From: Bacillota bacterium
GTDB taxonomy: Bacteria; Bacillota; Dethiobacteria; Dethiobacterales; Dethiobacteraceae
DNA: 34,385 nt
Assembly (NCBI GenBank): GCA_012522335.1
Contig: JAAYKP010000107.1
Coordinates: 1 to 34,385, forward strand
Reading direction: 5' to 3'
Shown here: piece after piece, positions 1,974 to 16,850 of the stretch
How positions within the stretch are numbered: position 1 is the first letter of the stretch
Layout: each line of letters starts with the position of its first letter
The notes under the pieces: generated by a model
What the model saw: the letters and a program-made list of their open reading frames with translations, nothing else
What the model was told of the DNA's origin: nothing
Databases searched by the model: none
Program-made: the position numbers and the translations under genes

Positions 1974-3833
1974 TTATTCACCATAAAGATCATTAATCAC
2001 TTCGTCTAAACCACCCAGTTCACGCAGAGATTCAAGTGAAGGTTTGCCGGTTTCGAAATCCCAGTTGGCAGCGGCAAAGAAATTCCTGCCCAGCTTTTCA
2101 TGGTCGATTTCTACTCCGGCTACCGGTCCGGTCGGCTGCGGCGGGTTACCAACACACCGGTCAGGAATCTTGAAATCTTTCGGTGTCAGGCCTTCCCTTA
2201 AATTAAAAGCATGTCGCATGTTTAGAATGCGCAGACCGGTTTTATAACTGTCGGCGGCGGTAAACGGTCTGCCGGTAACAGCTTCAAGATATTTTCTCTC
2301 TGCCTCCTGCAGCCCGGCCTGTGACATAAAAGTACAAAAGCCCACGCAGTTTTGCACTTCCTGATTGGTAGTCATCACCACATCCAGTTCGCCGGTATTG
2401 TTATAGTCATATTTATCGCCTATCGGAGCTCCAAACATTTGCGCAAAACCTAAACCACCTTTAACATGGCGTGCCGGAGTGGGATCATACTTGTAAGTGC
2501 GGGCAAAACCGGGTGCCAGCCTGGGGTCATGCATGGGCAGTTCAATGCCTAAGACCGTCTGCAAATATTCCTCACCTTTACCCCATTTTTGGGCGGCGTA
2601 TGCTGAACCATGCGCTAAAACTGCCCCGCAGCCTTCCTGGTCAGCAATTTTCTGGGTCAGTGCCACAATTGCCGCACCGTTGCCCCAGGTTAAATCTATG
2701 CCGTCTAATTCCTCTTTTGTTAAGACACCATTGTTATAGCATTCCATGGCCCAGGCAACAGTACCGCCGGTGGAGATAGTATCCAGTCCATAGCGGTTGC
2801 AGATTTCGTTGCACTTTAAAACTGCGTCAGCTTCATAATTTAACAGGTTACTGCCAAAAGATGCCGCGGTTTCATACTCGGGGCGTTCCGTTGGTCCCAA
2901 CGGCCAGCGGCCTGTATTAACTTCATACTCTGCACCGCAGCCCAGGGGACAATTTGCGCAGTTATATTTTTTCACTTTAAACTGATCAAGAACAGCAGCA
3001 CTAAGTTTTTCTGCCGCTTCTTCACCATAATCAACAACACCGATGCCGCCCCAATTCTTTACGGGTGAATCACCATTGAGGGCAGAAGCAGCTGTACCTG
3101 CACCGGTACCCATCTCGCCAAAGGCTTGTGCACCGGGATTATTTCTTAAATTATTAACCATCTCTCTATTCATGGCCTGTACTTTTTCTTCATCTGCCAT
3201 TGCAATAACTTCGGTACCACGCACAGCAATAGCTTTGAGCTTTTTAGAACCCATTACGGCACCGCCACCACCACGACCCGGAGCACGATGGCCGTCATTA
3301 ATGGGGCAGGCTAATAAAGAAAGCATTTCACCTGCCGGACCAATGGCTACGACACGCAATCTTGGTTCCCCGGTTTCCTTTTTCAGTTCAGCCCAGGTTT
3401 CCTTGGTGTCTTTTCCCCACAGATGAGAAGCATCCCTGATTTCAACTTTACCGTCGTTTATATAAAGATAAACAGGCTTTTCAGCCATGCCGGAAATGAA
3501 AACTGCATCATAACCGGCTTTTTTTAGTTCAGGACCAAAATAGCCACCCGAATTAGCATCATTCCAACCACCGGTTACCGGTGATTTATGCACCAGAGTG
3601 TAACGACCGCTAAAGAAGGCCTTCGTACCCGTCACCGGACCGGTGACAAAACCTAAAATATTGTCGGGACCCAAAGGATCTGCACCCGGAGGCATCAGAT
3701 TGTAAAGTATTTTTGCACCAATACCATAACCACCAATAAAATCCCTTGCTAAATCAGCTGTCAGCTCTTTTTCCTCCCAAGTTCCCTTGGTCAGATCAAC
3801 AAATAATATTTTGCCGGCGTAACCAGGTAACAT
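1974..3833 (-). CDS. aor: Tungsten aldehyde:ferredoxin oxidoreductase
   Basis: 619-residue member of the AOR family, cytoplasmic. These enzymes oxidise aldehydes to carboxylates with ferredoxin as electron acceptor, or run in reverse, using a tungsten bis-pyranopterin and one 4Fe-4S cluster. Visible: N-terminal MLPGYAGKILFVDLT, the pterin-binding SGRYTLVHKSPVTGGWNDAN region, GRGGGGAVMGSKKLKA, cluster cysteines in CANCPLGC (about residues 292-299) and the distal cysteine in QNCVGFCTF (about 500). The start at 3833 is preferred over an ATG six codons earlier because that upstream stretch is itself the ribosome binding site (GAGGAGGAGG). Length is normal for the family. The substrate cannot be deduced. 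It is followed by a MoaD-like carrier and preceded by a 200-bp region with direct repeats. Confidence 0.95.
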   Translation of the reverse strand: MLPGYAGKILFVDLTKGTWEEKELTADLARDFIGGYGIGAKILYNLMPPGADPLGPDNILGFVTGPVTGTKAFFSGRYTLVHKSPVTGGWNDANSGGYFGPELKKAGYDAVFISGMAEKPVYLYINDGKVEIRDASHLWGKDTKETWAELKKETGEPRLRVVAIGPAGEMLSLLACPINDGHRAPGRGGGGAVMGSKKLKAIAVRGTEVIAMADEEKVQAMNREMVNNLRNNPGAQAFGEMGTGAGTAASALNGDSPVKNWGGIGVVDYGEEAAEKLSAAVLDQFKVKKYNCANCPLGCGAEYEVNTGRWPLGPTERPEYETAASFGSNLLNYEADAVLKCNEICNRYGLDTISTGGTVAWAMECYNNGVLTKEELDGIDLTWGNGAAIVALTQKIADQEGCGAVLAHGSAYAAQKWGKGEEYLQTVLGIELPMHDPRLAPGFARTYKYDPTPARHVKGGLGFAQMFGAPIGDKYDYNNTGELDVVMTTNQEVQNCVGFCTFMSQAGLQEAERKYLEAVTGRPFTAADSYKTGLRILNMRHAFNLREGLTPKDFKIPDRCVGNPPQPTGPVAGVEIDHEKLGRNFFAAANWDFETGKPSLESLRELGGLDEVINDLYGE

Positions 3834-3870
3834 ACTTTTCCTCCTCCTCATATTTGCTTGACTGCCTTAA

Positions 3871-5915: not shown

Positions 5916-6617
5916 TTATTTGGTGCAGATATGTGCAGCAGCCACTCCGCCGGCGAAGGGATACACAGCAACTTGAGAAAAGCCATTGGCGGCAAATAGT
6001 TCAGCTAACTCCGCCTTGCTCAAAAATTTAAACGTCGATTCCTGGAGCCAATCGTAAGCTGCAAAGTTGTTAGTGACAAGTTTGCCTAAACAGGGCATCA
6101 CATACTTAAAATACAAGCGGTAGATTTGCTTATATATGGGTAAGGCAGGCTGAGATGTTTCCAGACAGACAGCAGACCCACCGGGTTTTAACACTCGATA
6201 CATCTCTTTAATTACCTGTTGGTAGTTTTGTACGTTACGCAGGCCGAAACCAATTGTCACATAGTCAAAAAAATCGTTGTTAAAAGGTAAATTAAGCGCG
6301 TTACCGCAGATGAGTTCTACGTTTTGTAGGTTGGCCTGAACAATTTTTGCCCTGCCTTGAGCCAACATCCGCTGACTAAAATCCAAGCCAATCACTTTGC
6401 CCTCCGGTCCCACAGCTTCTGCCAGGGCAATGGTCCAGTCGCATGTCCCACAGCAAAGATCTAAAACGATCTGACCAGGTTGGACAGCCATTTTTTTCAT
6501 GGTCTGCTTTCGCCAGCGCCGGTGCTGCCGGAAACTTATCAGTGAATTCATCAGATCATAGCGATGGGCAATCTGCTCAAAAAAATGTTTAATCTCCACT
6601 TCATGTTTTATTGACAT
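5916..6617 (-). CDS. menG: Demethylmenaquinone methyltransferase
   Basis: 233-residue UbiE/MenG-type SAM-dependent methyltransferase carrying out the last step of menaquinone synthesis. Features: FFEQIAHRYDLMNSLIS N-terminal block, SAM motif VLDLCCGTCDWTIAL, acidic LDFSQRML, IGFGLRNVQNY, LETSQP and the C-terminal FAGGVAAAHI. It follows the Bacillus protein almost end to end, including length. ATG 6617 is taken as start since it gives that length; an in-frame TTG at 6641 would add eight residues. Presence of this gene implies a menaquinone pool, which matters for the nearby formate dehydrogenase and cytochrome. It is divergent from the histidine kinase gene and upstream of the ylbF-like gene. 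Confidence 0.93.
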   Translation of the reverse strand: MSIKHEVEIKHFFEQIAHRYDLMNSLISFRQHRRWRKQTMKKMAVQPGQIVLDLCCGTCDWTIALAEAVGPEGKVIGLDFSQRMLAQGRAKIVQANLQNVELICGNALNLPFNNDFFDYVTIGFGLRNVQNYQQVIKEMYRVLKPGGSAVCLETSQPALPIYKQIYRLYFKYVMPCLGKLVTNNFAAYDWLQESTFKFLSKAELAELFAANGFSQVAVYPFAGGVAAAHICTK

Positions 6618-6709
6618 CAATAGGCCCGCCTTTTTTTCCAAAGCTTTCTCGAATTTCTGCGTTTACATGAGATTTCTGTCACTTTGGCTTAATGTGCACA
6701 CTGATAATA

Positions 6710-6737
6710 TTGTCATTCCGTGCGCAGATATTATACA
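6710..6737 (+). promoter_or_regulatory. Candidate promoter of histidine kinase gene
   Basis: TTGTCA (6710-6715) and TATACA (6732-6737) with a 16-bp spacer, about 100 bases upstream of the kinase start. Reasonable match to a housekeeping sigma promoter, by eye only. Confidence 0.4.
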
Positions 6738-6843
6738 TTTTACACATTTAAGCAGGATTTTTTCCTCCTCCACGCGAAAGCTTGTGAAAAAAATATTTTC
6801 TTTTTTCTGCAATCATCAAAATAGTGAATGGAGTTGGAGACTT

Positions 6844-8346
6844 ATGATTGAGGAAAAAAATTTAAGAAAAGCAGCGGGCAGCTCTTTCTCTGCGCTGAAA
6901 AACCGGTTAAAAGAACTGCAGTTGACATATTCCCCGGGATTACGCAGTAAATTCGTTCTGCTTTGGCTCTTCTTAGTGCTTAGCACAGGCCTCTGGTTTA
7001 CCTGGCAGTGTGAGCGGATTACACACACGGTAATGCTCCGCGATTTACAGCACCGTGGTCTCTGCATTGCCCGTAATGTAGCCTCACGCGGCGCTGATCC
7101 GTTTCTCAGCAGTAATCATCAGGAACTCCAGCAGATTATCAACGATACCGTAGCTAACAATGAAGATCTTTTATATTTATTTATCCAGGACCCGCAAGGC
7201 AGGGTGATTGTCAGCTCCCAACCTGAACAGCAACTGCCGGCGGATTTGCTCCTGCGGCCCCTCACACCGGGAGATAATTATCAGACAATAAACCATGCAA
7301 ACACAGAAATTATCCATGATTTTGCCGTTCCTATCTCCAGTGATAATGCCGCTACCATACGACTGGGTATTGCTGAAACAAATCTGCGGCACGCCCTGTC
7401 GCGGATCAGAAGAGCCCTCATTTCGACCCTGTTGGCTGCCCTCATTGTCGGCGGCCTGATCACTGCCTTTTTCACAAACAAATTACTAGGACCATTAAGG
7501 CGGCTTACTGCAGCTGCACACACCATCAGGGAGGGTGATTTTAGTGCCCGGGTGCCCATACAGTCTTTTGATGAGATGGGAGAGCTGGCAGCGGCATTCA
7601 ATTTGATGGCGGAAAAGTTAAGCACTTATAAGCTTGAGAATATAGAAAATCGTGCAGAATTAGATCGTATTGAAAAACTGCGTGTGCAATTGGTACAGCA
7701 CCTCATCACGGCTCAAGAAGAAGAACGCAAAAGAATCGCCCGGGAACTGCATGATGAAACATCTCAATCCTTAACAGCTTTAAAACTAGGGTTAAAGGCC
7801 ATGGAGCAGACAACTTCCCCGGCCGGGATTCAAGAATTAAGTCGCGAATTACGTCAGATGCTAGGTGCCACCCTTGATGAAATAACCGCCATTTCGCGCA
7901 ACTTACGTCCCAGCGTTCTGGATGACATGGGACTGCAGGCAGCATTGGCGCGTCTTATAGAAGAATCCTCACATCGTATAGGCAAAAAAATAATTTATAA
8001 ACATGAAGGACTAGTGGATAAACGTTTTCCGGCCTATATCGAAACAGCAGTCTACCGGATTGTACAGGAAGCAGTCACCAACAGCCTTAAGTATGCCCAG
8101 GCAGAAAATATCTTTGTCAGTGTTTCCTATCAACAGAATCAGCTAAAAGCCATCGTTGCTGATGACGGCATTGGCTTTGATCCGGCTGCTGTTTTAGACG
8201 GCAATATACCACAAAAAGGGTTCGGCTTATTTGGCATGCAGGAGCGAGCCACCTTAATTGACGGCACACTGCAAATTGATGCGGCCACAGGTCAAGGTAC
8301 CACAATTACCGTCACTGTACCAAATGTGCAGGAAGCCGGAGCATAA
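6844..8346 (+). CDS. NarL-family sensor histidine kinase
   Basis: 500-residue membrane kinase. Transmembrane helix at about residues 36-54, an external sensor region of roughly 130 residues (about 55-188; possibly Cache-like), second helix at about 190-212, HAMP domain (RLTAAAHTIREGDFSARVP), then a HisKA_3 dimerisation domain with phospho-acceptor His303 in ARELHDETSQSL, and an ATPase domain with N-box EAVTNSLKYA, DDGIGFD and GFGLFGMQER. Such kinases pair with LuxR/NarL-type response regulators. No regulator is adjacent; the only one in the window is at 16092-16757, on the far side of the formate dehydrogenase operon. ATG 6844 is chosen (TTGGAG upstream); the frame stays open to 6667 but the extra 59 residues have no binding site and are not kinase-like. 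The stop codon sits in a hairpin loop. Confidence 0.93.
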   Translation: MIEEKNLRKAAGSSFSALKNRLKELQLTYSPGLRSKFVLLWLFLVLSTGLWFTWQCERITHTVMLRDLQHRGLCIARNVASRGADPFLSSNHQELQQIINDTVANNEDLLYLFIQDPQGRVIVSSQPEQQLPADLLLRPLTPGDNYQTINHANTEIIHDFAVPISSDNAATIRLGIAETNLRHALSRIRRALISTLLAALIVGGLITAFFTNKLLGPLRRLTAAAHTIREGDFSARVPIQSFDEMGELAAAFNLMAEKLSTYKLENIENRAELDRIEKLRVQLVQHLITAQEEERKRIARELHDETSQSLTALKLGLKAMEQTTSPAGIQELSRELRQMLGATLDEITAISRNLRPSVLDDMGLQAALARLIEESSHRIGKKIIYKHEGLVDKRFPAYIETAVYRIVQEAVTNSLKYAQAENIFVSVSYQQNQLKAIVADDGIGFDPAAVLDGNIPQKGFGLFGMQERATLIDGTLQIDAATGQGTTITVTVPNVQEAGA

Positions 8347-8405: not shown

Positions 8406-9191
8406 CTACTGCGCTTCTTTTTCGCCGGGTAAAACTTTTTTTGTTTCGCGTTTGTTTTCCCAGATTAACAACCCAATTAAAGCAGCAACAAAGATTCGCA
8501 GGGGGCGAAAAATGGCATCCCAAATGTAAGCGGAAATCGGTACTTTCGGCTCAGCCGGCAGTCCATACTTTTCAGGATCATCTTTCAAGACATACATGAC
8601 TGCCGTGCCGTTTAATTCTTCCAAGCCATAGATTCGCGCCTTACTGTATCCCTGAACCATCAGTTCATCAACTCGGCGGTGTGCTAAATCTACCATCTCA
8701 ACCCGTGTGCCAAATTGGATAGCACCTGTGGGACAGGCTTTGGCACAGGCCGGTATTAAACCAATGGCCTGCCGGTCACTGCAGAGAGTACATTTTTGAG
8801 AAACATTTTCTTTTTGGTTAAAGGCCATTACTTTAAATGTGCAGCTGGCTACACAATAGTTACAACCGATACATTTTTTCGGGTCTGTGACTACAGCACC
8901 GGTTTCTGTATGACTGATGGCACCTGCCGGGCACACTTTTTCACAGGCTGCATCAGTACAGTGCATACAGCCTTTTTTGGCGAAATACCAGCTTATTGCA
9001 CCCGTTGATTCATCTTCATGCTCACGAAAAACCACACGCGTCCAGGAGTTTGCCGTAAAACGTACCGGGTTTTCATAATAGCCGGTAAAACTTGTTTCTT
9101 CCGCCGGCAGTCTGTTCCACTGCTTACATGCTACCTGACAGGCGCGACAACCAATACATTTAGAGGTATCAATTAGTATAGAGTTTAACAT
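8406..9191 (-). CDS. fdhB: Formate dehydrogenase iron-sulfur subunit
   Basis: 261-residue polyferredoxin subunit of the FdnH/HybA type that takes electrons from FdhA. Four cysteine groups for 4Fe-4S clusters are visible: CIGCRACQVAC (residues 12-22), CMHCTDAACEKVC, CIGCNYCVASC, and the split CTLC...CAKAC group. Near the C-terminus IFVAALIGLLIW forms a single membrane anchor, followed by a charged tail. ATG 9191 follows the fdhA stop by one base, with GGTGGGG upstream, so translation is likely coupled. In E. coli the partner would be the cytochrome b subunit FdnI; no such gene is present. The RnfD membrane protein in the same operon is the natural candidate to receive its electrons (inference). 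Confidence 0.93.
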   Translation of the reverse strand: MLNSILIDTSKCIGCRACQVACKQWNRLPAEETSFTGYYENPVRFTANSWTRVVFREHEDESTGAISWYFAKKGCMHCTDAACEKVCPAGAISHTETGAVVTDPKKCIGCNYCVASCTFKVMAFNQKENVSQKCTLCSDRQAIGLIPACAKACPTGAIQFGTRVEMVDLAHRRVDELMVQGYSKARIYGLEELNGTAVMYVLKDDPEKYGLPAEPKVPISAYIWDAIFRPLRIFVAALIGLLIWENKRETKKVLPGEKEAQ

Positions 9192-9192
9192 T

Positions 9193-12192
9193 TTACCCCA
9201 CCTTCCTTATGTTACAGAGAAAGGCTTTATACTCAGGTATACTGGTATTAGCATCACCGATGGACGGTACTATGTCATTGACAATCGCGCCTTTGTTCAA
9301 GCCCATATAACCCCAGTGGAAAGGCATACCGACCATTTCACGCAGTTCGCCGTCAACCAGCAGCGGTTTAATCCGCGGTGTCACACAGGCAATGGCGGAG
9401 ATTTTCTTTTTACGATATGTGCTGATTTCTACCTGATCGCCGTTTTCGATGCCCAGTTTCTCCGCCAGTGTGGGACTGATCTCGACAAAAAGAGCTGGCA
9501 TTAATTCATTGAGCCATGGAGTGTTGCGGGTCATGATACCGGACTGCCAGTGTTCAGTCACACGGTAGGTCGACATGATATAAGGGAATTCCTGATCACC
9601 GGCCGCCGCCAAATGATCTTGATACCAGATTTTTGTTACCGGATTAAACTGCACGGTGCTGGAAAGTAGGTTGCGAATCGGACTTTCGGCCGGTTCATAG
9701 TGTTCCGGGAAAGGACCTTCAGCCATGCCGTTCGCAAAAAGGCGAGCCTGCAGTTCGGGCAGCATAATGTAAGGACCTTGTGCTGTTGCTTCCGGTGGAA
9801 CATTAGCATTGAAATCCGGTACATCATTACACTGCCAGCTTTCGCCGTCCCACCACATCAGAGGGATCTCCGGGTTCCAGGGTTTCCCCTGCGGATCTGC
9901 GGAACAACGATTGTAGATAATCCGCCGGTTTAGCGGCCAGGCAAATGCCCACTGAGCATTGGTGCCAATACCCGACTCTTCTTTGATCCGGCTTTTACAT
10001 GCGGGATGGGTGCGATTATTATAATACCCGCTGTAAATCCAGCAGCCGCAGGCGGTACTGCCGTCATCAGCAAGTTTGGTAAAGTTTTCTAGAAGCTGGC
10101 CGGTTCTGGTGTTGTAGCCGTTAATTTCCATTGCCACGGCATTGGCGTCAGCTTCCTCCCCATAATCCCAGTTCAGGTTTAATATCGGAGCGGCAAAAGG
10201 ACCGGGATTCTTTTCATATTCTGCCCTGATCGCTTTATAGAGCCGGTCAACAATCCACAGGTCAGTTTTAGCGTCTCCCAAGGGCTTTTGTGCCTGATAA
10301 CGCCACTGGATCCAGCGACCGCTATTAGAGATCGTTCCTTCCCGTTCAAAGGAGGCGGAACCGGGCAGCAGGAAGACTTCTGTATCAATTTCAGTCGGAT
10401 CTACGCCGGGTTCTTTCCAGAAAGCTGCAGTTTCGTTTTCAAAAATATCAATGGAAACCAGCCAATCTAAATTCTTGGTATATTCCCGCTTGGCCGAAGC
10501 AGACGGTCCGGTGACAGCCGGGTTATCCGCCCAGCAAATCATACCTTTAATTTCACCTTCCCCCATATATTTGTACATACCGATATGGGAGCGATCTTTA
10601 TCATCTAATTTAGGCAGATAATCAAAACAAAAATCGTTTTCCTCAACAGCGTGATCACCATACCAGGCCTTTAACATGCTGATGAGGAATTTTGGTTTGT
10701 TAGCCCAATAACTGCTGGCGGGTGTTTCTTTTTCCAGGTAGGCGGCAAGATTTTCGTGCAGTGAAGCTTTGGGCATATTTAGGTAACCGGGGATGATATG
10801 GTAGAGCATAGCCATGTCCGTTGATCCCTGCACATTAGCCTGCCCACGCTGCGCATTAACACCACCACCCGGAATACCGATATTACCAAGCAGCAGCTGC
10901 AGGCAGGCAATGGCCCGTACGTTCTGTGAGCCGTGTGTGAATTGAGTCACACCCATGGCATACAGAATATTGCCTGCTTTGCCCGCCTGCCCCGTGCTGG
11001 CATATAATTCTGCCACAGCCTGCAATTTGTCCACGGGACAGCCGGTAATCCGGCTGACTGTTTCCAGGTCATACCGCTCATAATGCTTTTTCATAAGCTG
11101 TAAAACACAGTGGGGATCAGTAGCTGTTGGATCCTTTTTGATATTCCCGTCTGCATCCAGCTGATAGCTCCAACTGCTCTTATCATAGGTTGCAGCGCGA
11201 TCTTCAGCCTCCTGTGCCCCGGAAAATAAGCCGTCTGCAAAGGAAAATTCCGGGTTAATAAGATAGGTGGCATTAGTGTAATTGAGCACATACTCTTCAT
11301 GGTAAAGTTTATTACTTAAGACATAGTTAATCAGCCCGCCCAGAAAAGCAATGTTCGTCCCGGGGCGCAGAGGCGCATATAAATCAGCAACTGCTGCAGT
11401 GCGAGTAAAGCGTGGGTCAACAACAATTAATTTGGCGTCCCTTTCAGCACGCGCCCGCTCAATCCACTTCATGGAAATGGGATGGTTTTCCGCCGGGTTA
11501 CAGCCGAAAGCTAAAAATACATCGGAATTCTTATAATCAATCCAATGGTTAGTCATGGCACCGCGACCAAATGAGTTGCCCAGACCGGCAACTGTGGAGG
11601 AGTGTCAGAGACGGGCACAATGGTCAATATTGATGATACCCAGTGATCTAATTAATTTATGGTACAAGTAGTTTTCTTCGTTAGTACAGGTAGCACTGCC
11701 CAAATGAGCAATGGCACGGGTACGGTTCACAGTGACTCCGTTTTCATCAACCCTTTCAAAAGTGGAGTCGCGTGTTTCTTTAATTCGCTGGGCAATATGT
11801 TTTAAAGCAAAATCCCAATCCACCTCTTTCCATTCAGCAGCGCGCGGTGCACGGTAGAGCACTTTTTTTATGCGCTGCGGGTGCTCAATGGCCTGCCCCT
11901 GTTGATCGTAAATATAAGCAAGATTAAAAATAGAGCTGCCTTTACTGCAGAGAGCACCTTCGTTAATAGGGTGATCCGGATCCCCTTCCGCGCCGACTAC
12001 TTTATTATTCTGCACGTAACAAATGATACCGCAGCCAACAGAACAGTATGGACAAATGGTAGTTACTTCTTTTGCATACTGTACGGGCACCGGTGCTGCT
12101 TCCACAGAATCGGCAAAACCTAAACTGGCTAAAGTAGCTGTACCAACAGCAGCACCCGTTAATTTTAGAAAACTACGTCGTGATATTTTCAT
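9193..12192 (-). CDS. fdhA: Formate dehydrogenase catalytic subunit, selenocysteine, Tat-exported
   Basis: One gene of 999 residues read through an in-frame TGA (11605-11607) as selenocysteine 196. The context HCARL-Sec-HSSTVAGLGNSF is the conserved formate dehydrogenase active site, and the frame is identical on both sides. N-terminal Tat signal SRRSFLK followed by a hydrophobic stretch and likely cleavage after VEA, so it acts outside the membrane. The 4Fe-4S ligands are Cys47, Cys50, Cys54 and Cys82. The rest is the bis-molybdopterin (or tungstopterin) guanine dinucleotide domain with the C-terminal YRVTEHWQSG and GDQVEIST segments. Length is close to E. coli FdnG. ATG 12192 follows AGGAGGTGA. 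The organism must encode SelA, SelB, SelC and SelD elsewhere. Operon partners upstream are fdhE, rnfC and rnfD. Confidence 0.96.
11575..11607 (-). promoter_or_regulatory. SECIS element of fdhA with UGA codon
   Basis: After the UGA (11607-11605) and a 12-base gap, the mRNA forms GUUGCC-GGUCUG-GGCAAC, a perfect 6-bp stem with the apical loop GGUCUG. The same GGUCU loop is the SelB contact in E. coli fdhF and fdnG. This places the readthrough signal at the standard distance for bacteria. Confidence 0.93.
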
Positions 12193-12208
12193 AATTGCTC
12201 ACCTCCTA

Positions 12209-13210
12209 CTAGCTTTTTACAGCAACGTTTGCACCGGTCGATACAGTTTGCTTAATAAGCTGTGCCTTTTCTTCCCCAAATTTTTTTCTTCTCGTTAAAC
12301 GATCAATCAGCGGTACAAATGCATTCATAATTAAAATGGCAAAGGCAACCCCCTCTGTAGGTGCCAATAAAACACGGAAAACGACAACAATAATACCTAT
12401 GCAGACGCCAAAGATAATCTGTCCCTTTTTGGTAATGGGACTGGTGACCCAGTCTGTGGCCATATAGAAAGCACCAAGCAGCAGACCACCGCTCAGCAGA
12501 TGGTAAACAGGATGCTGCCCCAACAGGGCGGTGCCGATGAAAACAGTAGCCAGCATAGAAACGGGAATATGCCAGGTAATATGCTTTTTGTAAAGCAGAT
12601 AAAGACCACCGAGAATTAAGGCCAAGGCAGATGATTCTGCGATACCTCCTCCCTGGGTCGCAATAAAAAATGTTCCCATGTTGGGCAAGGGCAGCCCCAT
12701 CTGCAGCATGGTTAGCGGTGTAGCCTGCGTTACCGTATCAATGCCGGGAAAACTGACGCGCCAATAGAAAAATTCGTTATTCAGATACACTAACCAAGGG
12801 GCAAAGAGTATTACAGACACTCTGCCAAACAGCGCAGGGTTAAAACGATTCCAACCTAACCCACCTAGATACTCCTTGGCAAAACCTACCGCAATAAAAG
12901 TTGCCGCAGATGCTAACCACCAAGGCGTAGCTGCCGAAAAGCTTAATGCAACCAGAACACCGGTTAAAATAGCACTGCCGTCATGCAGTTGAGGTTTTTT
13001 ACCCATCGCCCGCCGGAACAATACCTCGGTAAACATAGCCGTCAGAACACAAACCATGATTAAAAAAGGTACATTGAATTTAAAAAAGTAACACGCCACT
13101 AAAGTGACCGGCAGCAGGGCAATGGTTACATCCCTCATAGCCGTGGACACCTGATCACCGGCATGTAAATGTGGTGATGAAGCAGCCTGCAAATTTAAAT
13201 CTGTTCCCAT
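12209..13210 (-). CDS. rnfD: RnfD-type flavin membrane subunit
   Basis: 333-residue protein of the RnfD/NqrB family with about ten hydrophobic segments. Family marks: HDGSAILTGVLVALSF, GWNRFNPALFGR, and the flavinylation-type motif DTVTQAT with Thr164 as the probable FMN attachment residue, then ATDWVTSPIT. In Rnf and Nqr complexes this subunit carries flavins inside the membrane and is tied to ion movement. ATG 13210 follows GGAGGG. It lies between rnfC (18 bases) and fdhA (16 bases). RnfG, RnfE, RnfA and RnfB are absent, and no ApbE flavin transferase is in the window. I infer it replaces the cytochrome b subunit of a classical formate dehydrogenase. Confidence 0.93.
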   Translation of the reverse strand: MGTDLNLQAASSPHLHAGDQVSTAMRDVTIALLPVTLVACYFFKFNVPFLIMVCVLTAMFTEVLFRRAMGKKPQLHDGSAILTGVLVALSFSAATPWWLASAATFIAVGFAKEYLGGLGWNRFNPALFGRVSVILFAPWLVYLNNEFFYWRVSFPGIDTVTQATPLTMLQMGLPLPNMGTFFIATQGGGIAESSALALILGGLYLLYKKHITWHIPVSMLATVFIGTALLGQHPVYHLLSGGLLLGAFYMATDWVTSPITKKGQIIFGVCIGIIVVVFRVLLAPTEGVAFAILIMNAFVPLIDRLTRRKKFGEEKAQLIKQTVSTGANVAVKS

Positions 13211-13228
13211 TGTGACCCTCCTTTCCCT

Positions 13229-14515
13229 TTACGCCCTTTTTACATGTCGAACAAAATCAACTATAGGCCGATGTGAAGGACAGACATAAGCACAGATACC
13301 ACACTCAAAACAATCGAGGGCACCCCACTCTTTGGCTAAATTATAGCGACCCAATTCACCATACATGCCGATATAGTTGGGATAAAGCCCCATGGGACAA
13401 TGATCAACACATTTGCCGCAGCGCACACAAGCTAAATATTCCGGAGAGCTGCGAACAAGATCTGACGTTAAAGCCAATACGCCTCCGCAGCCTTTAACCA
13501 GGGGAGCATCCAAAGTAGTTTGAGCAAAACCGGTCATGGGGCCGCCCATGACAATTCTCACCACGTCACTTCTTATTCCCCCCGTGCAATTGAGGAGATG
13601 GGAAAGAGGTGTGCCGATAACAACACGATAATTACCCGGTTGCACGGCCCCAGGACCCGTTAACGTCACAATTCTTTCTGTTAAGGGGCGCCGGTATTTT
13701 ACTGCATCCCAAACTGCTTTCACAGTCGCTACATTTTGCACCACAACATTAACTTCTGCCGGCAGCTTGCCAAGGGGAACTACCCTTCCGGTTGCTGCAT
13801 AAATAAGCTGTTTTTCTGCCCCCTGCGGATATTTTACTTTCAGGGGAACCACTTCCATGCCGGGTTCTTTAGCCAGCTTTTTTTTGATAACCTCAATGGC
13901 ATCCATTTTGTTTTCCTCGATACCAAAGATAACTTTAGCACCGCCTAAAACCTTGCTGAGAATACGAGCACCGGCAATCATCTCCTCGGCTTCTTCCAGC
14001 ATTAAACGGTGATCGCAAGTTAAAAACGGTTCACATTCACAGCCATTGAGAATTAAGTAATCAATTGTAGTGGGTGGATTAACCTTTACGTGGGTGGGGA
14101 AACCTGCACCACCCATACCCACAATCCCGGCTTCTCTGATTCGGCGTCTGATTTCCTCCGTGGACAATTGTGAAACATCATCCGCGGTATAACTGGCAGG
14201 TTCCTGTTCCGGATCCACATCAATGACTACACAATCTTCCAGCTGTCCGGTCATGGTAATCCGGCTGCCAATTTCACGGACTGTGCCACTTAATCCCGTA
14301 TGGACAGGTGCGGAAATAGCTGCATCGCTATCTCCTATCTTCTGACCTGCCTTAACCCTCTCACCAACTGAAACCAGCCGCCTGTTAGGTGCACCAATAT
14401 GCTGTTTTAAGGGAATAATTAATTCAGTTGGCTGTGGCAGTTCCTGTACAGGCAGATGTTCAGTTTGTTCTTTGTAGTGAGGAATATCCATCCCTCTCTC
14501 AAAAGTTTTTGCCAC
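13229..14515 (-). CDS. rnfC: RnfC-type NADH/ferredoxin-side subunit
   Basis: 428-residue RnfC, complete by comparison with clostridial RnfC. N-terminal IIPLKQHIGAPNRRLV and KIGDSDAAISAPVH block, an NuoF-like FMN/NAD site with GMGGAGFPTHVK (about residues 133-144) and GCECEPFLTCDHR, an SLBB region, then two 4Fe-4S motifs CVRCGKCVDHC (363-373) and CFECGICAYVC (402-412). It normally sits on the cytoplasmic face and exchanges electrons with NAD(H). GTG 14515 is chosen since GGGAGGTGA precedes it; a TTG nine codons earlier overlaps the fdhE stop but has no binding site. All cofactor residues are kept, so this is not a decayed remnant. Confidence 0.93.
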   Translation of the reverse strand: MAKTFERGMDIPHYKEQTEHLPVQELPQPTELIIPLKQHIGAPNRRLVSVGERVKAGQKIGDSDAAISAPVHTGLSGTVREIGSRITMTGQLEDCVVIDVDPEQEPASYTADDVSQLSTEEIRRRIREAGIVGMGGAGFPTHVKVNPPTTIDYLILNGCECEPFLTCDHRLMLEEAEEMIAGARILSKVLGGAKVIFGIEENKMDAIEVIKKKLAKEPGMEVVPLKVKYPQGAEKQLIYAATGRVVPLGKLPAEVNVVVQNVATVKAVWDAVKYRRPLTERIVTLTGPGAVQPGNYRVVIGTPLSHLLNCTGGIRSDVVRIVMGGPMTGFAQTTLDAPLVKGCGGVLALTSDLVRSSPEYLACVRCGKCVDHCPMGLYPNYIGMYGELGRYNLAKEWGALDCFECGICAYVCPSHRPIVDFVRHVKRA

Positions 14516-14538
14516 GCTTTTCACCTCCCTAAGTTGAT

Positions 14539-15441
14539 TCAATTCAGTACAGCTTGCTTACCGGCTTCACCATAGCCCTCACGAGCGGCCAGCTGATCGA
14601 GATAATAAGTCACTAAGTTTTCCAAATCGGGAATGATCTCCCTTGCCAACTCTTTTAAAACTATTGTTTTCAGATAGCCCTTACATTGATGGCAAACATA
14701 AACACGACGGTGCGTCTGTTCCGGAATATAGAAAAAGCTTAAATGCTGTTGGTCGGTTGTACCGCAGGAGGTACAAAAAATCCGCTGCACATCCCACTGT
14801 GTGTGACAAAGTCCACATTCCAATACACGGCTGCCGTCTTCAGCCCTCAACATGGCCAGCATCGGCTTTTCACCACACACAGGGCAGATTCCCTCTTTCC
14901 AGTTTTCAAAAGTAAAACTTGCTGCCGTTTGCCGGGCAAAATTGACGAAGTACATTTGCAGGGCAGCACGAATGACCTGCGCCATTACGGCAAGGTGCTG
15001 CTCCGTCAGTTGTGCGGCAGCAGGATTTTTGCGGAGGTAAGCCTGTATCATTGGCAGTGACAAATTGCCGGGCTGACAAAAAATATCCTCCAGATTTTGA
15101 GCAGTAAGTGTACTTTGCAGAAGCATTAGCAGCTCGTCAAACTGATGTTCAGTACCTGCCAATAGTTCCTTATGGGCTGCTGTCAGAATGGCCTCAGCCT
15201 GTTTTAGAGTTTCACTGAGCGGTATCGGCAGTACAACTTTAGACAGCAGCGGTTCCTTTTTACGTAAGCCTTCAGTTAAGGCCTGGGGTACAATATCTAC
15301 GGCAGGCTGCTTGCTAAAACTCCGTTGTCGTGCGTACAATTTTTTATAGAACAACAAAAGTGGTTGCAGGTTTTTATTTTCTTGTAAATAGAACTGCAGT
15401 TCACGCTGTACTTCTGCAGCTGTTGGAGGATACTTGACCAC
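14539..15441 (-). CDS. fdhE: Formate dehydrogenase accessory protein FdhE
   Basis: 300-residue FdhE homologue. The C-terminal half holds four CxxC pairs in two rubredoxin-like metal folds: CPVCGEKP, CGLCHTQW, CTSCGTTD and CHQCKGYL. The N-terminal half is helical and poorly conserved. FdhE is needed for maturation of Tat-exported formate dehydrogenases in E. coli, where it contacts the catalytic subunit before export. GTG 15441 with GGAGC upstream. First gene of the five-gene operon ending at fdhB, which confirms that the rnfC-rnfD-fdhAB genes are a formate dehydrogenase unit and not a chance neighbourhood. A 235-bp leader precedes it. Confidence 0.9.
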   Translation of the reverse strand: MVKYPPTAAEVQRELQFYLQENKNLQPLLLFYKKLYARQRSFSKQPAVDIVPQALTEGLRKKEPLLSKVVLPIPLSETLKQAEAILTAAHKELLAGTEHQFDELLMLLQSTLTAQNLEDIFCQPGNLSLPMIQAYLRKNPAAAQLTEQHLAVMAQVIRAALQMYFVNFARQTAASFTFENWKEGICPVCGEKPMLAMLRAEDGSRVLECGLCHTQWDVQRIFCTSCGTTDQQHLSFFYIPEQTHRRVYVCHQCKGYLKTIVLKELAREIIPDLENLVTYYLDQLAAREGYGEAGKQAVLN

Positions 15442-15660: not shown

Positions 15661-15679
15661 AAAAGAGCCTTGAAGGCTC
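15661..15679 (-). terminator. Terminator of LysR-type gene
   Basis: GAGCC (15665-15669) and GGCTC (15675-15679) form a short stem with loop TTCAA on the minus strand, followed by TTTTTATTTT. The stem overlaps the stop codon of the regulator gene at 15678-15680. It separates that gene from the formate dehydrogenase operon. Confidence 0.75.
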
Positions 15680-15983
15680 ATGGAGTCTGTTTAAACTTTT
15701 TAAGTTCTAAATGCAGATCTTGTCGTAAATGCATGATTTTTCTACAATACTCATAGACGACCAAACCTGCTGGTGTAGGGGTTACCCCTTTGTTACTGCG
15801 TTTTAACAAACGCTGTTGGCAGTATTGTTCCAAATCACGAACCTGCATACTGACTGCGGGCTGCGTAATGTGACAAAGGCGAGCAGCTTCCGAGATACTT
15901 CCGGTTTGAATTACTGTGCAAAATGCTTCGATCTGTGACATTTTCAAGCGACATCCATTTTTTTCTTGTAAATTGAGGGACAT
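15678..15983 (-). CDS. LysR-type DNA-binding domain, stand-alone
   Basis: 101 residues consisting of only the winged helix-turn-helix of LysR regulators: QIEAFCTVIQTGSISEAARL, ITQPAVSMQVRDLE recognition helix, RLLKRSNKGVTPTPAG wing, and the dimerisation helix. The roughly 200-residue effector domain is missing, and a terminator follows the stop directly, so this looks like the complete gene and not a broken one. ATG 15983 is chosen with AAAGGAG eight bases before it. It sits between the response regulator and the formate dehydrogenase operon on the same strand; control of that operon is plausible. ModE of E. coli also has a LysR-like N-terminal domain, but the sequence here is of the ordinary LysR kind. 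Confidence 0.85.
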   Translation of the reverse strand: MSLNLQEKNGCRLKMSQIEAFCTVIQTGSISEAARLCHITQPAVSMQVRDLEQYCQQRLLKRSNKGVTPTPAGLVVYEYCRKIMHLRQDLHLELKKFKQTP

Positions 15984-16091
15984 CTGCATCTCTCCTTTTA
16001 AATAGATCATAACTACCGGCCGCAAATAAACCGCTGAACTGCCATCCCATGTCGGGAATTACCTGGCAGGAAAGTGCCTGGCATTCCTCCC

Positions 16092-16757
16092 TTATCCGTG
16101 TAAATCAAGCAAATTGTGTTCTAAGGCGTATTCAACAAACTCTGAACGGTGAACAATATCTAATTTTTCTTTAATTCTTGCTTTATGGCTTTCTACAGTT
16201 TTCACACTAACATGGATTTTTTCCGCTATCTGTTTGTCAGTAAAGCCGCGGGCAACCAAGATAAGAATCTCTTTTTGCCGTTTACTAAGCATATCTTTTG
16301 CTTTGCTTTTTTGTGTTTTTTCTGCCGGCTGGAGATAACGCTGCCATAATTTTTTTGTCATGGAAGAGTCTACAACCATTTCTCCACGCATAATTGCTCG
16401 GATGGCCAGGATCAGCTCGTCATCTGCTGCTTTTTTTAATAAATAGCCATTTGCGCCCTCTAAAAGTACTTTTTGTATATAATCTTCTTCTTCGTGAATA
16501 GTTAAAACCAGAATCTTGACTTGGGGTGAAAGCTGTTTTATTTTTTTGATAAATTCAATACCACTGCAGTCCGGTAGTGTTAAATCCAATATAATTAAAT
16601 CAGGCTTTTTCTCCTGGACAATCGTTATTCCTTCTCTGACTGAACCTGCTTCGCCGATAACTTCCATATCACCCTGCGCCTTAATGACTAGGTGTAAACC
16701 CTTTCGCACAATGGGATGATCATCAATAATCATTATTTTGATTGTGTCATCAGACAA
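16092..16757 (-). CDS. NarL/LuxR-type response regulator
   Basis: 221 residues: receiver domain (1-120) with IIDDHP acidic pocket, phosphorylation site Asp58 in LIILDLTLPD, switch Thr in LVLTIHEE and Lys in GYLLKKAAD; then a LuxR-type helix-turn-helix (about 155-215) with LSKRQKEILILVARGFTDKQ and VSVKTVESHKARI. Start is read as TTG 16757 because AAAGGGGTGA precedes it; a GTG three codons upstream is part of that site. It is divergent from the tetraheme cytochrome gene and has no kinase beside it. The NarL-type kinase at 6844-8346 is the only partner in the window. Regulation of the cytochrome or of the formate dehydrogenase operon is inferred from position. Confidence 0.93.
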   Translation of the reverse strand: MSDDTIKIMIIDDHPIVRKGLHLVIKAQGDMEVIGEAGSVREGITIVQEKKPDLIILDLTLPDCSGIEFIKKIKQLSPQVKILVLTIHEEEDYIQKVLLEGANGYLLKKAADDELILAIRAIMRGEMVVDSSMTKKLWQRYLQPAEKTQKSKAKDMLSKRQKEILILVARGFTDKQIAEKIHVSVKTVESHKARIKEKLDIVHRSEFVEYALEHNLLDLHG

Positions 16758-16850
16758 ATATTTCACCCCTTTGCTTTAAAATAGACGCAAGTTATTTTTT
16801 TCACATGTTTAGCTATAGATTCTATTTCAAATTGGCAATATCCTGCTAAG

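Follow-up and report, generated by a model that had tools for sequence, protein, structure and literature searches.

Electrons from NADH (−320 mV) somehow reach formate and H2 (about −400 mV) in syntrophic, quinone-poor anaerobes, and how they do so is a long-standing question. It is raised in an unusual form by a minus-strand operon of a member of the Dethiobacteraceae, in which genes for an exported formate dehydrogenase (FDH) are joined by rnfC and rnfD: which subunits might carry electrons across the membrane here? The operon, fdhE-rnfC-rnfD-fdhA(Sec)-fdhB, spans 8406-15441 of the window, i.e., the whole 34,385-nucleotide stretch of contig JAAYKP010000107.1 that was analyzed. An ORF check and family scans bore out the layout described in an initial annotation, with five same-strand genes spaced by 1-23 bases and neither rnfG, rnfE, rnfA, or rnfB nor a cytochrome b gamma subunit gene near the locus. 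The features are as follows.

6667..8346, plus strand: sensor histidine kinase (sCache-like/HAMP/HisKA_3, NarX-like family), downstream of the operon and convergent with it; family scans
8406..9191, minus strand: fdhB, 261 aa, four [4Fe-4S] clusters, with a membrane anchor at the C terminus (about residues 226-244); TIGR01582, 229 bits (below cut-off), and FdnH alignment
9193..12192, minus strand: fdhA, 999 aa, Tat-exported selenocysteine-containing catalytic subunit with one in-frame UGA; TIGR01553, 1189 bits (over cut-off), and Tat signal
11552..11610, minus strand: SECIS element at/after the UGA codon; match to Rfam SECIS_3 (RF01989)
12209..13210, minus strand: rnfD, 333 aa, membrane subunit of the stand-alone ("half-Rnf") clade; TIGR01946, 278 bits (over cut-off)
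13229..14515, minus strand: rnfC, 428 aa, with a site for FMN/NADH and a C-terminal pair of [4Fe-4S] clusters; TIGR01945, 500 bits (over cut-off)
14539..15441, minus strand: fdhE-like gene, 300 aa, formate dehydrogenase assembly protein; TIGR01562, 74 bits (below cut-off), and PF24859 (over cut-off)
15665..15679, minus strand: terminator-like hairpin (GAGCCTTCAAGGCTC and a T-run) that separates fdhE from the regulator genes and marks the operon's upstream border
16092..16766, minus strand: NarL-type response regulator, upstream of the operon; family scans

From fdhE to fdhB, the intergenic gaps are 23, 18, 16, and 1 bases. The rnfC start is probably the GTG at 14515, chosen for the Shine–Dalgarno sequence AGGGAGG ahead of it; the open frame extends to a TTG at 14542, and a start there would give a 4-base overlap with fdhE. 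Apart from the hairpin at the upstream border, terminator-like matches on the minus strand all lie within coding sequence. Since the NarX/NarL-like pair flanks the operon and stays with it in close relatives (both genes are retained in L012, L013, and L101), we suggest that an external signal controls its expression. Other neighbors include an aldehyde ferredoxin oxidoreductase gene (1974-3851, minus strand) and a MenG/UbiE-like methyltransferase gene (5916-6641, minus strand), whose product passes a subfamily cut-off and may have a substrate other than menaquinone. A LysR gene at 15678-16025 (minus strand), closed by the terminator hairpin, encodes the DNA-binding part only (115 aa), and its best NCBIfam match, below cut-off, is the selenium metabolism-associated LysR. 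A full-length LysR of 308 aa occupies the same place in L014.

The catalytic subunit FdhA matches D. vulgaris FdhA (E 4e-288) and FdnG (1kqf_A, E 4e-271), and its in-frame UGA falls in the motif CARL-U-HSS. The SECIS_3 match scores 34.8 bits (E 6e-5), below the Rfam gathering score of 63. Since the fold energy of this element taken alone is not significant (z-score −0.67), we base the selenocysteine assignment on the Rfam match, a tRNA-Sec gene found in the host genome, and homology. In FdhB, 16 invariant cysteines account for four [4Fe-4S] clusters, and the alignment with E. coli FdnH (1kqf_B, E 3e-70) covers residues 6-243, reaching the start of the C-terminal anchor. This hydrophobic helix is conserved among FdhB proteins linked to RnfCD, and by analogy with FdnH the protein is predicted to face the extracytoplasmic side; its predicted structure is poor (pLDDT 53). 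FdhB and FdhE both score below curated cut-offs and are thus more diverged, and close relatives of the window likewise have fdhE as the first gene.

RnfC and RnfD were said to keep their flavin and cluster motifs, and this proved correct. RnfC retains GMGGAGFPTH, ECEP, and eight cluster cysteines, its nearest solved chain being 7zc6_C of C. tetanomorphum (E 4e-115). RnfD retains the predicted covalent-FMN threonine, Thr164, in DTVTQATPL. It matches 7zc6_D (E 4e-70), and its AlphaFold model (pLDDT 76) resembles 9eri_D of A. woodii and 7zc6_D of C. tetanomorphum with a TM of ~0.8, these two species providing the nearest solved relatives of RnfC/RnfD. The residue at the proposed ion site is Ala195, corresponding to Glu219 in A. 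vinelandii and to Ala in C. tetanomorphum. RnfD carries only PF03116, with no fused NAD-binding PF00175 domain, RnfC being a separate protein. The intact ligands bear on one alternative, in which RnfC and RnfD would be spare or relic subunits that join canonical Rnf while FdhAB acts independently or with another partner, the genes being merely co-regulated. Such subunits would be expected to show ligand erosion after loss of function, but none of the ligands checked has been lost.

What else the host encodes was determined from its genome, a 2.0 Mb MAG in 169 contigs that is 99.3% complete, in which the window is contig C55; the host belongs to the same family as the MAG Dethiobacter sp. (L014 is contig G005:C9). 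A separate rnf operon and an apbE gene, which the initial annotation had proposed to look for, are both present: canonical Rnf is split by assembly gaps, one contig end (C105) holding rnfC-rnfD' and another (C3) rnfA'-rnfB, and there is one ApbE. Homology of RnfC and RnfD to Rnf subunits, together with a canonical Rnf in the host and in most relatives, fits the relic-subunit alternative, yet FdhB is anchored and none of its usual membrane partners is encoded. A cytochrome b subunit located elsewhere, which would have spoken against a role of RnfCD as the membrane partner, did not turn up, since a search of the whole 99.3%-complete genome for cytochrome b561/FdnI (PF01292) returned no match. 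Likewise, NrfD and MqnA/D were not found in the host genome, and nothing there scores over the MenD cut-off. On this evidence, no gamma subunit linking to quinone is visible and menaquinone is probably lacking; an assembly gap in this fragmented MAG could hide one of FdnI, NrfD, MenD, and MqnA/D, all four less easily.

The same absences weigh against a quinone as the electron partner. Electrons from formate might go from RnfD to a quinone in the membrane, just as the RnfD homolog NqrB reduces quinone in NQR (PMC12174285), with RnfC playing a structural role, and the MenG-like gene at 5916-6641 would fit such a scheme. However, MenD over cut-off and MqnA/D are both missing from the genome, and RnfC keeps its NADH/FMN motif and both cluster motifs whereas NqrA is devoid of redox cofactors (PMC12174285), so we give this possibility very little credence.

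We surveyed the distribution of such loci by a GTDB genome scan and in 60 relatives, followed by synteny analysis. Forms of RnfD at least 49% identical to that of the window occur in 28 of the 60 relatives (counting its own genome, and with one partial), which usually also hold a second, canonical copy at ~42%. In a phylum scan, 183 RnfD matches were not counted as half-Rnf because canonical and stand-alone RnfD have overlapping scores around 390 bits; the best ones were checked by synteny. Stand-alone RnfD, defined by a better score against the stand-alone profile, amounted to 45 distinct proteins. All 45 have the FMN threonine, none has rnfE, rnfA, or rnfB beside it, and a single one adjoins rnfG. 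A search for rnfC-rnfD-fdhA-fdhB without rnfGEAB, proposed at the outset, thus yielded 23 distinct loci where stand-alone RnfD is linked to FdhA (23/45), in six gene orders:

fdhE-rnfC-rnfD-fdhA-fdhB: the window, L014, L098, L099, L101, and L102
rnfC-rnfD-fdhA-fdhB: L116, L121, and L123
fdhE-fdhA-fdhB-rnfC-rnfD: L107, L111, L118, L120, L138, and others
fdhA-fdhE-rnfC-rnfD-fdhB, with RnfCD between FdhA and FdhB: L017 and L103
fdhA-fdhB-rnfC-rnfD-fdhE: L024
fdhE-fdhA-fdhB-rnfD-rnfC: L140

Linkage of FdhA to RnfCD therefore outlasts rearrangement, which is sound evidence that they function together. The arrangement is genuine and conserved; an assembly artefact is ruled out, since multiple independent contigs and genomes share the same gene order.

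FDH is not the only partner. Exported [NiFe] hydrogenases, with assignments confirmed by NCBIfam, are found at three of the 45 loci (L108, L027, and L028), accompanied in L108 (3658-9816) and L027 by a HybA/FdhB-like subunit with a Tat signal. A PhsA-type molybdoenzyme is the partner at four more (L018, L117, L141, and L142), with TorD in three; these TorD/PhsA-like partners score below equivalog cut-offs. Eight loci have an Fe-S subunit alone, three of them at contig ends. At L025 and L068, it is all that stands beside RnfCD, and at L113, L114, L115, L119, and L139, rnfC, rnfD, and an Fe-S gene form triplets with no catalytic gene nearby, whose enzyme may be encoded elsewhere. Cytochrome b561-type genes adjoin RnfCD at three loci (L023, L030, and L065), with no catalytic subunit visible. 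RnfG is the partner at one locus, and the last three have an unknown partner or lie at a contig edge. A different architecture is seen at L141 (7992-11015, minus strand, G152), where a [FeFe]-hydrogenase catalytic domain is fused to RnfC domains in a protein of 1007 aa; the fusion gene is flanked by rnfD and a four-cluster Fe-S gene, with the exported PhsA-type enzyme encoded next to it, so that a cytoplasmic hydrogenase is apparently wired via RnfD to an extracytoplasmic molybdoenzyme.

The 45 stand-alone RnfD form one clade when compared to 32 others (SH-aLRT 99.5), in a tree made by a quick method, without bootstrap and with the root unknown. They differ from canonical RnfD at fixed positions, e.g., E113 and W254, both present in the window's RnfD and found in 40/40 stand-alone RnfD. 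Inside this clade, [NiFe] and PhsA partners are scattered, requiring three and four changes, respectively, which indicates that a common membrane module has exchanged its catalytic enzymes. On the canonical side of the tree, orphan RnfD of ~40% identity from related genomes, with no adjoining rnf gene (L127-L131 and L137), make up another clade. Because it branches separately, has fixed residues of its own, and has kept its association with Fe-S and catalytic genes despite several rearrangements, stand-alone RnfD does not look like a relic of canonical Rnf, and we consider the relic-subunit alternative unlikely. A broken canonical Rnf at the window locus is ruled out by the separate clade, the intact ligands, and the separate Rnf in the same genome.

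The survey also bears on whether FdhB contacts RnfD directly. An RnfG-like FMN-binding protein encoded elsewhere might bridge the two, making the complex Fdh-RnfG'-RnfDC. The genome does encode two FMN_bind proteins (C161:7999-8262 and C70:46720-46926), which could be an extra link in the electron path, and one relative (L125:7219-10328, minus strand, G011) has rnfG-rnfC-rnfD without rnfE/A/B, with an FdnI-like cytochrome b nearby. However, both FMN_bind genes are distant from the operon, there is none at the window locus, and rnfG is absent from every FDH-, hydrogenase-, and PhsA-linked RnfCD locus, which makes a bridging protein quite improbable.

The initial annotation had proposed that electrons pass from FdhB to the RnfD flavins, RnfC, and NAD(H), in either direction, RnfCD standing in for the haem b subunit. 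Because linkage holds across genomes and gene orders, FdhB has an anchor, the ligands checked are kept, and FdnI, NrfD, MenD, and MqnA/D are missing, this remains the best-supported reading, as a prediction from gene content. FdhA, FdhB, RnfD, and RnfC are thus likely to form one membrane enzyme, a predicted extracytoplasmic formate/CO2:NAD(H) oxidoreductase in which RnfCD would act as a transmembrane wire to cytoplasmic NAD(H), and we consider this function probable. In Rnf, electrons from ferredoxin move outward via RnfA/E to the FMN of RnfG on the outside and then through the FMN and riboflavin of RnfD to RnfC and NAD+ (PMC12174285). RnfCD would be the output half, or return leg, of this path. 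In the proposed enzyme, 1) selenocysteine-containing FdhA would oxidize formate (or reduce CO2) outside the membrane, 2) electrons would follow the [4Fe-4S] chain of FdhB and reach the FMN covalently bound on the outer side of RnfD, 3) they would cross the membrane from this FMN to the inner riboflavin of RnfD, and 4) they would continue through the [4Fe-4S] clusters and FMN of RnfC to NAD+. By analogy with FdnH, the distal cluster of FdhB would lie at the outer membrane face, and the anchored FdhB would replace RnfG.

Since electrons would cross the membrane once, the transfer itself would be electrogenic. In the direction of NADH, it would generate membrane potential; making formate from NADH would use that potential as its driving force. 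The standard potentials (E0') are −432 mV for CO2/formate and −320 mV for NAD. We calculate that the redox step from formate to NADH yields 22-27 kJ/mol, while moving two charges against 150 mV costs 29, giving about +2 to +7 kJ/mol overall. This direction is therefore near equilibrium and marginal at 150 mV, unless the potential is lower. In contrast, potential-driven transfer from NADH to 10 µM formate is calculated at about −26 kJ/mol, so that in syntrophs, the favored direction would be from NADH to external formate, powered by the membrane potential. Coupling to an ion gradient, as suggested at the outset, stands insofar as a single inward electron crossing is already electrogenic, but Na+ pumping by RnfD is not required. 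In the formate-to-NADH direction, the gap of ~110 mV between formate and NAD+ cannot also fund a pumped ion (four charges) at 150 mV; ion movement by RnfD is possible in the NADH-to-formate direction, given Ala195 as in C. tetanomorphum. Two further couples, H+/H2 at −414 mV and thiosulfate at about −402 mV, would fit the same single-crossing scheme, thiosulfate reduction by the PhsA-like partners being a guess.

By gene content, the window is a half-Rnf locus, with RnfD of the stand-alone clade, RnfC, an Fe-S subunit, and an extracytoplasmic enzyme, without RnfGEAB. A broader reading, on which we are evenly divided, is that RnfCD serves as an exchangeable transmembrane module of general use, linking NAD(H) to extracytoplasmic FDH, [NiFe] hydrogenases, and PhsA-type enzymes, usually connected via an anchored four-cluster Fe-S subunit. 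By a single electrogenic crossing, quinone-free syntrophs would use the membrane potential to push NADH electrons to couples near −400 mV (CO2/formate, H+/H2, and perhaps thiosulfate) or conserve energy in reverse. Such a two-subunit flavin wire would answer our opening question with neither haem nor quinone involved and would demonstrate that Rnf's output half functions on its own. It would also offer a natural test of the Rnf mechanism, because RnfD, one proposed ion path, is kept while RnfA/E, the other, are absent.

How does this locus compare to known systems? One of its closest counterparts is E. coli FdnGHI, whose chains 1kqf_A and 1kqf_B rank high among the PDB matches for FdhA and FdhB. 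Both have a Tat-exported selenocysteine-containing catalytic subunit, a four-cluster anchored beta subunit, and, as predicted here, a one-way electron crossing, but the window has RnfD flavins and RnfC instead of the haem b of FdnI, and its predicted partner is NAD(H) rather than menaquinone. Compared to Rnf (RnfCDGEAB; C. tetanomorphum 7zc6 and A. woodii 9eri), RnfC and RnfD are homologous, keep their ligands, and would share the same output path. However, the window locus has no RnfB/A/E/G, electrons would come from an extracytoplasmic enzyme rather than from ferredoxin in the cytoplasm, and the membrane would be crossed once instead of twice. NAD-linked cytoplasmic FDH with NuoE/F-type subunits catalyzes the net formate:NAD(H) reaction predicted here but is soluble, whereas the window's catalytic subunit is exported, which places the membrane between the substrates. 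Finally, the soluble periplasmic FdhAB of Desulfovibrio has a beta subunit without an anchor, while FdhB in the window is anchored.

Partial Rnf machineries have been described before. In the Nqr/Rnf-like complexes (Meheust et al. 2021, PMC8238504; PMC10979944), electrons also pass from cytoplasmic NAD(P)H to extracytoplasmic redox partners in a single crossing. Their RnfD-like domain, which has lost the flavinylation Thr, is fused to an NqrF NAD-binding domain and works with an NqrC/RnfG-like protein (PMC8238504, PMC10979944), whereas the window locus has a separate RnfC, keeps the Thr, and has no FMN_bind partner. "Ca. Syntrophonatronum acetioxidans" has been reported to encode only RnfC, RnfD, two RnfG, and one exported FDH (PMC6295475), a set that is perhaps related to half-Rnf. 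Frank et al. 2016 reported rnfC and rnfD without other subunits beside FDH in the MAG of a dominant syntroph, unFirm_1, where metaproteomics detected RnfC and the adjacent FDH (PMC5080403), i.e., a comparable arrangement is expressed in a relative. The view that no characterized complex has this make-up therefore holds for the literature we searched, but the adjacency itself has been on record since 2016. In that work, it was mentioned in passing for a single MAG and treated as a truncated Rnf cation pump with no mechanism given (PMC5080403), and no family, electron path, or other partners were proposed. None of the papers found in our search, which covered few subscription journals, describes a modular half-Rnf family. 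The composition of the locus is thus a new arrangement of known parts, and the modular RnfCD family to which it belongs appears to be new.
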